DNA of 64,000 nt from an uncultured Ectothiorhodospiraceae bacterium (GTDB lineage Bacteria > Pseudomonadota > Gammaproteobacteria > Nevskiales > Oceanococcaceae): NCBI GenBank assembly GCA_937141935.1, contig CAKZQS010000007.1:1-64000 (forward strand), given 5' to 3'. The notes under the pieces are model-generated. The model was not told the origin of the DNA. It made no database searches and saw nothing but the letters and a program-made list of their open reading frames with translations. The stretch's first letter is position 1, and every line of letters starts with the position of its first letter. Positions 34,547-43,542 of this stretch are shown piece by piece. The position numbers and the translations under genes are program-made.

Positions 34547-34585
34547 AGGCCCACCAGCCCAAGATGAGCGGGCTGGTGGGCCTTT
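34547..34585 (+). terminator. Strong hairpin after the first large lipoprotein
   Basis: AGGCCCACCAGCCC (34547-34560) pairs perfectly with GGGCTGGTGGGCCT (34570-34583) around a 9-base loop, followed by only TT and then GCG. The hairpin is very stable with a short T tract, so it probably terminates or attenuates before the second lipoprotein. Confidence 0.6.
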
Positions 34586-40521: not shown

Positions 40522-41613
40522 TCAGCCCTGTGCGTGGCAGAACTCGTGCAGCGTGTCCTCGAGGGCCTGCGCAGCATAATCGCTGACGACCCGTGCCTGC
40601 CCGATCTTGTCGAGCAGCACCAGGCGGATCTGGCCGCCCAGGTTCTTCTTGTCGCCGCGCATATGCTCCAGCATGGCGGCCGGCGTCAGCCCCGCCGGCG
40701 GCGCCACCGGCAGGCCCAGGCTGTGCAGAAGTTCGCGCAAGCGCGCCACCTCGTCGCCGGGCAGCCAGCCCAGCCGGGCCGACATCGCAGCGGCCATCAG
40801 CATGCCGCAGGCCACGGCCTCGCCATGCAGCCAGTCGCGGTACTGCAGGTGCGCCTCGATGGCGTGGCCGAAGGTGTGGCCCAGGTTCAGCAGCGCGCGC
40901 TGGCCGGCCTCGCGCTCATCGGCGGCCACGATGGCGGCCTTGTGCCGGCAACTTTGCTCAATCGCCTGCTGCAGCAGCGCGGGGTCGCGCGCCAGCAGAC
41001 CGGCCTGCTCGCGGCGGATCCAGTGGTAAAAGTCGGCGTCGCCCAGCAGGCCGTACTTGAGCACCTCGGCCAGCCCGGCCAGAAACTCGCGCTGCGGCAG
41101 GGTGCCCAGCGTGTCGGTATCCGCCAGCACGGCAATCGGCTGATGAAAGGCGCCGACCATGTTCTTGCCCAGCGGGCGGTTCACGGCCGTCTTGCCGCCC
41201 ACGGAGGAATCCACCTGGGCCAGCAGCGTGGTGGGCAGCTGCACGAAGCGGATGCCGCGCTGGAAGATGGCCGCGGCAAAGCCGGTCAGGTCGCCGACCA
41301 CGCCGCCGCCCAGGGCCAGCAGCGTGCAGTCGCGGCCCAGCCGTTGCTCCAGCAGGTAATCCAGCAGCGCGGCGCAGGTATCCAGCGACTTGTAGCGCTC
41401 GCCGTCCGGCATCAGGTACTCGCGCAGCCCGCCGCCAAAGGCCTGCTGCACCCGCTCCAGGTACAGCGGCGCAATCGTTTCGTTGCTGACGATGACGCAG
41501 CGGGCCGGGTCCAGTGCGGCGGGGTAGTGCGCGCGCTCGGCGAGCAGGCCGCGCCCGATCAGGATGGGGTATGGCCGGCTGGGCGTGGCGACGTCGACGC
41601 GGGTCAGGGACAT
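40522..41613 (-). CDS. aroB: 3-dehydroquinate synthase
   Basis: Second step of the shikimate pathway: NAD-dependent cyclisation of DAHP to 3-dehydroquinate. The product has 363 residues, normal length. LALGGGVVGDLTGF binds NAD; DSSVGGKTAVN and the metal-binding NLGHTFGHAIE are present. It starts 18 bases after the aroK stop and forms an operon with it. Confidence 0.97.
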   Translation of the reverse strand: MSLTRVDVATPSRPYPILIGRGLLAERAHYPAALDPARCVIVSNETIAPLYLERVQQAFGGGLREYLMPDGERYKSLDTCAALLDYLLEQRLGRDCTLLALGGGVVGDLTGFAAAIFQRGIRFVQLPTTLLAQVDSSVGGKTAVNRPLGKNMVGAFHQPIAVLADTDTLGTLPQREFLAGLAEVLKYGLLGDADFYHWIRREQAGLLARDPALLQQAIEQSCRHKAAIVAADEREAGQRALLNLGHTFGHAIEAHLQYRDWLHGEAVACGMLMAAAMSARLGWLPGDEVARLRELLHSLGLPVAPPAGLTPAAMLEHMRGDKKNLGGQIRLVLLDKIGQARVVSDYAAQALEDTLHEFCHAQG

Positions 41614-41631
41614 TCGTGCGGGGCCGGGCGC

Positions 41632-42174
41632 TCAGGCGCTTTTCTGGGGCGGCGCGCCTTGGGCCAGGCGGCGCTGCAGGTGGGTGGACAGGCTGCGAAC
41701 GAGGTCGCGGGTGCTGCGCGTGGCGCTGGCCACGATCAGGTCCGAGCACTCGCGGTAGTGCGGGTCGCGCTCGCTCAGCAGCGCATTGAGCCGGCGGCGC
41801 GGGTCGTCGGTGCGCAGCAGCGGCCGGTGGGTGCTGTGGCGGGTGCGCTTGAACTGCTGGTCCACGCTGGCCAGCAGGTAAATCACATAGGGGCCGCTGC
41901 GCAGCAGCTGGCGATTCTCGGGGCGCGTGACCACGCCGCCGCCGGTGGCGAGCACGATGTCCGGCGTCGTCACCAGCTCGCGCAGCAGCTCGGTTTCGCG
42001 CTCGCGAAAGCCGGCCTCGCCCTCTTTTTCGAAGATGTAGGCGATGTCCACGCCACAGCGCTGCTCGAGTTCGTGGTCGGCATCGACAAAGCGGTAGCGC
42101 AGGTCCTTGGCCAAGGCCCGACCAATGGTCGTCTTGCCCGCACCCATGGGCCCGATGAGAATGACGCTGCGCAT
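41632..42174 (-). CDS. aroK: Shikimate kinase
   Basis: Phosphorylates shikimate with ATP. The product has 180 residues. The Walker A motif is GPMGAGKTT (9-17), the DADHELE shikimate/Mg segment follows, then GFRERE and the GGGVV loop, and the lid Arg region (RHSTHRPLLR). In many gammaproteobacteria aroKB follows the pil genes; here the gene is instead divergent from the atp operon, with about 150 bases between them. Confidence 0.97.
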   Translation of the reverse strand: MRSVILIGPMGAGKTTIGRALAKDLRYRFVDADHELEQRCGVDIAYIFEKEGEAGFRERETELLRELVTTPDIVLATGGGVVTRPENRQLLRSGPYVIYLLASVDQQFKRTRHSTHRPLLRTDDPRRRLNALLSERDPHYRECSDLIVASATRSTRDLVRSLSTHLQRRLAQGAPPQKSA

Positions 42175-42257
42175 CGCAGAAGGCTACCAAGACCCGCGCG
42201 CGCCCGTGCGGCCCGCTGGCCAGGGCCCCGTCCCGGGCCCCGCCGGGCCCGACGCCT

Positions 42258-42292
42258 GCGTATTGACGCACTGCGTCAATACGCGCTATATT
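42258..42292 (+). promoter_or_regulatory. atp operon promoter with a perfect 27-nt palindrome
   Basis: TTGACG (42263-42268), 18 bases, TATATT (42287-42292). GCGTATTGACGCA (42258-42270) and TGCGTCAATACGC (42272-42284) are exact inverse complements around one C, covering the -35 and most of the spacer. A dimeric repressor bound there would block RNA polymerase. The palindrome does not match FNR or CRP spacing. Confidence 0.75.
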
Positions 42293-42323
42293 TGGCTGGA
42301 TTTGGTCAGGGGTTGAGCGCTAG

Positions 42324-43542
<1,219 letters not shown>

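Follow-up and report, generated by a model that had tools for sequence, protein, structure and literature searches.

The window analysed here, a stretch of 64,000 nucleotides, carries a perfect 27-nt palindrome that lies over the core promoter of an ATP synthase operon. We lean, with little more than even confidence, towards the view that this is an ordinary sigma-70 promoter, the spacer of which came to mirror the arm holding the -35 box by drift or by template switching. The promoter itself is conserved in the other available genome of the genus, the palindrome is broken there, and the genome holds no other copy of the site.

Geometry of the promoter palindrome

The palindrome (42258-42284) reads GCGTATTGACGCA-C-TGCGTCAATACGC, and the report in the preliminary description of two 13-base arms, exactly complementary around a single base, holds to the letter (Table 1); the range given there, 42258-42292, takes in the palindrome plus the -10 box. 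The atpI promoter consists of TTGACG, an 18-nt spacer and TATATT, with 10 of 12 matches to the consensus, and is the sole sigma-70-like site found in 42150-42750; an alternative reading, made by eye, has a 17-nt spacer and CTATAT. The left arm contains the whole -35 box and most of the spacer is taken up by the right arm, such that the palindrome spans the entire -35 box and 16 of the 18 spacer bases, and leaves the -10 box outside; its placement over the -35 box and most of the spacer of a good promoter was, in other words, correctly described. With TTGACA- and TATAAT-like boxes set 16-18 bases apart, and conserved in the genus (see below), the site has the features of a sigma-70 housekeeping promoter.

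Table 1. Coordinates of the palindrome, the promoter elements and the neighbouring genes in the window
Feature	Position	Strand	Remarks
aroK, shikimate kinase	41632-42174	-	PF01202; divergent neighbour
Palindrome arms	42258-42270 + 42272-42284		13 nt each, 100% complementary, centre C42271
-35 box TTGACG	42263-42268	+	within left arm; same in same-genus genome G001
-10 box TATATT	42287-42292	+	beyond palindrome; same in same-genus genome G001
Leader	42293-42313	+	putative ribosome site AGGGG (42308-42312, by eye); 20/21 bases conserved in G001
atpI, first ATP synthase operon gene	42324-42740	+	GTG start; PF03899, barely above cutoff (25.4 vs 25.1 bits)
atpB, ATP synthase subunit a	42721-43542	+	PF00119; comparison anchor

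The genes downstream were rightly assigned to an ATP synthase operon, on the strength of the atpI and atpB domains. This operon is read from the plus strand, and the minus strand carries aroK and aroB; none of the five neighbouring proteins scanned is a regulator. For comparison we used the order, of 85 genomes, in which our own family is represented by four (G000, our genome, to G003) and our own genus by two (G000 and G001). The family is probably Oceanococcaceae, where the NCBI taxonomy puts Oceanococcus and Abyssibacter; Abyssibacter is a conceivable genus for the window. The aroK-atpI layout is common to the window and to G001. In G002, from the same family, a ParB-like gene (named by eye) lies upstream of atpI in the same direction. 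Because atpI is divergent from aroK here and preceded by the ParB-like gene there, the atpI neighbourhood (window 42174-42324 versus L006) is, judging by predicted gene order, rearranged between the two genera.

Frequency of such palindromes by chance

At 68% G+C, the expected number of perfect repeats with 13-nt arms set exactly one base apart is 0.0046 in 64 kb and 0.26 in 3.57 Mb. Among 200 windows simulated with a first-order Markov model, 13-nt arms appeared in none with a gap of 1, in three with a gap of up to 3 and in seven with a gap of up to 10; and 496,071 bases from 80 related loci (L052-L131) yielded, at gaps of up to 4, two perfect repeats with 12-nt arms and none with 13-nt arms. 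Such a palindrome is uncommon, yet a few genomes taken together should contain one at some place. The window as a whole holds eight perfect inverted repeats (arms of at least 9, gap of up to 10), where 25 simulations averaged about 6.5; one of its inverted repeats, at 34547-34583, has longer arms, of 14 nt, around a 9-nt gap (AGGCCCACCAGCCC...GGGCTGGTGGGCCT). Perfect 13-nt arms are rare at any one given promoter, and the palindrome is notable more for its position than for its existence.

Comparison within the genus

The atpI promoter of G001 reads ATTGACGCACTGCCGCAATATCAGCTATATTTGACTGGATTTGGTCAGGGG. It matches ours at all six positions of the -35 box, all six of the -10 box, 20 of the next 21 bases and 13 of the 18 spacer bases, and its arms pair at 8 of 13 positions, seven of these among the inner nine. 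The five spacer differences all fall in the right arm, where they form two runs (GT vs CG, CGC vs TCA). A dedicated operator is expected to be kept as the same site at the same promoter in close relatives; with its 8 of 13 pairs, G001 has not kept it.

Over the 60 bases upstream the two genomes match, ungapped, at only 14, and the spacer is more conserved than that; since the fourfold sites of atpB already match at 60 of 119, however, its 13 of 18 is just mildly higher (binomial P 0.05), and the spacer appears at most mildly conserved. Both genomes have ATTGACGCACTGC..CAATA in common, and their ancestor would therefore have held at least seven of the nine inner pairs. With a single other genome of the genus to compare, our own genome may have been perfected, or G001 may have decayed from a perfect ancestor.

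Comparison across the family and order

We found atpB in 80 of the 85 genomes and used 77 atp loci, leaving aside G070, where the match was partial, G083, which was split into two pieces, and G075, whose score equalled that of G015 and G059. A promoter-like site was present in 77/77, though by a permissive pattern, such that some of these promoters may be wrong, and the counts of imperfect repeats over the promoter use the first match per locus; TTGACC serves as the -35 box in 36 of the 77. A perfect repeat over the promoter (arms of at least 7, gap of up to 6) occurs in our own genome only, and in none of the other 76 loci.

Imperfect symmetry is another matter. With a one-base centre, at least seven of nine pairs over the -35 box are found in 4/4 family genomes vs 4/73 others (Fisher 5e-5), a value that overstates the case: the test is post hoc, our genome was chosen for its palindrome, and the family consists of two sister pairs (G000/G001 and G002/G003) and so adds about one independent lineage. 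At eight or more pairs the counts become 3/4 and 0/73; when gaps of up to 6 are admitted at seven of nine pairs, they become 4/4 and 12/73, and by this measure a quasipalindrome of seven in nine over a -35 box is not rare. When up to one mismatch in nine is tolerated, a repeat overlapping the stretch from -35 to -10 is seen at four of the 77 loci (G000, G002, G003 and G066), and a search allowing mismatches in 80 bases from each of 30 loci gave eight of nine pairs in G002, G003, G022, G032, G034 and G056.

The promoter of G002 and G003 (the Oceanococcus group) is TTGACC-17-TATAGT, with a spacer unlike that of our genome. At its -35 box lies an imperfect one-base-centred repeat with eight of nine pairs, GGGATGTCA-T-TGACCTCCC in G002 (L207) and GGCACGTCA-T-TGACCTGCC in G003 (L208), in which both members of one pair differ between the two genomes (G-C to or from C-G). 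In 2000 column shuffles of the G002/G003 alignment, a shared repeat as good arose in 13, and in two of these with a two-sided change as well. Of 39 close genome pairs, this pair alone has a repeat over the promoter in common; the one common to G032 and G034 is in the leader. Searched without mismatch, the G002/G003 pattern occurs once in each of these genomes and is absent from G000 and G001. The family repeats differ in sequence and that of G002/G003 is centred eight bases further upstream relative to the -35 box, and for these reasons it is not the same site as the window palindrome.

The atp promoter of relatives, which the preliminary description had singled out for comparison, gives a divided answer: the palindrome is not conserved, and one-base-centred symmetry, in another sequence, recurs in the family genomes. 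To us this is a moderate argument for an operator that falls short of proof, because the test is post hoc, the lineages are two sister pairs, the sequences differ and template switching also yields two-sided changes.

A separate inverted repeat was observed in family f2, in the atpI leader, after the -10 box. It has a three-base loop (TTGGTGC-nnn-GCACCAA or TTGATGC-GGT-GCATCA), was seen at L173 (G032), L179 (G034), L187 (G022) and other atp loci of f2, stands whole or degraded in the 14 sequences aligned, and could be a hairpin at the 5' end of the atp transcript or an operator; its two inner pairs are invariant, and its covariation does not exceed that of shuffles. Written as TTGGTGCA-N-TGCACCAA, it has the frame TTGnnGCA-N-TGCnnCAA in common with the window palindrome. 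The joint pattern finds its sole exact genome match at the atp site in G022, G028, G032 and G034; with one mismatch it occurs at six places in our genome vs eight for the control, and at 4-9 vs 0-5 in nine other genomes. That the two are the same element was considered and rejected, given that the leader repeat sits after the -10 box.

Search for further copies

The preliminary description had proposed searching the genome for further half-sites; TGCGTCAATACGC occurs in it nowhere except in the two arms of the palindrome. The 23-mer GTATTGACGCANTGCGTCAATAC, with up to three mismatches, likewise returned the atp site alone, and among 100 genomes it is present in three, our own included, with three mismatches each in G037 and G093. 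For the 17-mer TTGACGCANTGCGTCAA at the same tolerance, our genome has 15 places vs 14 for a reversed control, and all 14 besides atp carry three mismatches; places and control stand at 25 and 13 in G001, 29 and 24 in G002, and 18 and 18 in G003. The excess of loose matches in G001 leans towards an operator. Further copies in the genome, which are usual for a regulon and are not required of a single-target regulator, were not found.

Some individual matches may be recorded here. In G001 the second-best 17-mer site, a two-mismatch version (L040, 1501-1517), sits in the interval that separates a tyrosyl-tRNA-synthetase-like gene from a divergent peptidase-like gene (by eye). In G002 a one-mismatch site falls within an MMPL-like frame (a name given by eye). 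The two-mismatch site TTGACGCAGTGCAACAA is common to G002 and G003 (L042 and L043, 1501-1517), and in G002 it lies downstream of a PhaR-like gene (by eye), outside the two longer flanking frames, with a 101-aa frame covering it.

Outside the family, the exact 17-mer was found in one of 369 sampled genomes of the class, namely our own, and in nine viral stretches, several of which have common flanks. We considered a phage operator and rejected the idea, as the viral matches are, by estimate, about what chance would give in a collection of that size and their arms are just 8 in all. Among the papers listed in a literature search for the 17-mer and its parts, none was related, judged by title.

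Discussion

We suggest that selection on the -35 box, the -10 box and the leader would have kept a strong sigma-70 atp promoter (TTGACG-18-TATATT) in place, and that the perfect palindrome upon it is, as far as the compared genomes show, specific to the species and probably without a regulator of its own. In the ancestor of the genus an imperfect inverted repeat, with its seven or more inner pairs, would already have been here; in our own lineage the arms may then have been perfected by plain drift, or by a one-step quasipalindrome template switch, whereby a stalled polymerase would copy one arm into the other. For such a switch one looks to an outgroup with the imperfect ancestor, and here there is a single genus mate, the other spacers of the family being unlike. 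The palindrome may well be an accident of mutation.

The preliminary description had suggested an operator, and a fast-drifting one, specific to the family or lineage and with a single target, is a possibility to which we give appreciable weight, though clearly short of even. A dimeric helix-turn-helix repressor would sit on TTGACGCA-N-TGCGTCAA over the -35 box, block RNA polymerase and tune the expression of atp, and perhaps of aroK. The perfect symmetry of the window palindrome and its geometry suit a repressor of this kind, its half-site centres lying 12 bp apart and overlapping the -35 box, much as Rex, with a footprint of 29 nt, does at the atpI promoter of Streptomyces (PMC5355995). The want of a second site in our genome, which tells against the suggestion, is tempered by the fact that a single-target regulator needs none, and the pattern of the G002/G003 repeat likewise matches exactly at just one place in either genome. 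That repeat, with its two-sided pair change, and the symmetry over the -35 box in all four family genomes (vs 4/73 others) argue for an operator, but its differing sequence and position argue the other way, as do the broken palindrome in G001, the lack of the palindrome at other atp loci and of the exact 17-mer in the rest of the class sample, the regulator-free neighbourhood and the short arms of the viral matches. A more ambitious version, which we think unlikely, is that in this family a dimeric repressor on the -35 box is dedicated to the ATP synthase operon as its single target; repressor and site would co-evolve fast, with symmetry alone shared between genera and the most perfect form in our own species.

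Two further explanations take the fold itself to be what matters. A supercoiling-sensitive cruciform, which would extrude under strong negative supercoiling, hide the -35 box and lower atp transcription, seems to us very improbable: the strand, folded as DNA, does form a 13-bp hairpin (-15.1 kcal/mol and z -4.9 for a stretch of 51 bases around it), but any perfect palindrome of this size folds equally well, arms of 13 bp are short for cruciform extrusion in cells, and the symmetry is not kept in the genus mate. Even less credible is an RNA hairpin or terminator instead of a DNA site. The stem at 42257-42285 that a simple scan flags as terminator-like (one found, 0.4 expected) precedes the point at which the atp transcript is predicted to begin, the nearest genes on its upstream side, aroK and aroB, are read in the opposite direction, and its tail, CTATATTTGG, has no T run and contains the -10 box itself, unlike an intrinsic terminator, in which a stem and then a T run stand downstream of a gene; Rfam showed no family at gathering score in 41500-43500.

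Were the palindrome an operator after all, ATP synthase would have a dedicated switch of an uncommon sort, and symmetry shared without shared sequence would offer a neat test of regulator-site co-evolution. If it is not, the case is a useful warning that a palindrome, however perfect and striking its place on a core promoter, can be confined to one species and is not necessarily the sign of a regulator.

Comparison with known systems

The consensus for FNR is TTGAT-N4-ATCAA and that for CRP is TGTGA-N6-TCACA. The window has TTGAC-N7-GTCAA, with TTGAC in place of the TTGAT half-site of FNR and seven bases in place of four between the half-sites, and its spacing excludes a site for either protein, as had been stated at the outset.

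The accompanying statement, by which an operator of this sort is not usually known from ATP synthase operons, was right only in part. Our literature search on promoter palindromes or operators of the atp operon found nothing besides the case of Rex; elsewhere, atp operons are bound by Rex and OmpR and have predicted sites for Fnr and ArcA. In Klebsiella the DNA upstream of atpI is bound by OmpR (PMC10269446), and predictions place sites for Fnr and ArcA ahead of the atp genes in some Enterobacteriaceae, Yersinia and Vibrionaceae (PMC1805755); the window resembles these in having a candidate control site ahead of an atp operon in a gammaproteobacterium.

For the mutational reading, it is established in E. 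coli that quasipalindromes can be made perfect by template switching (PMC7202029), and a single such event has been proposed to yield perfect stems as well as paired changes (PMC8794818). Unlike the products described there, ours has an ambiguous ancestor and the event itself is presumed; like them, it has clustered differences that all make one arm the exact complement of the other.

At the atpI promoter of Streptomyces avermitilis, Rex binds a palindrome that lies over the -35 box and spacer (PMC5355995). Rex sites read TTGTGAA-N4-TTCACAA and are present at several respiratory operons, whereas the window has TTGACGCA-N-TGCGTCAA, in a single copy and in a gammaproteobacterium, and Rex as its binder is ruled out by sequence; the arrangement is nonetheless like that of the Rex operator, an inverted repeat over the -35 box and part of the spacer of an atpI promoter.
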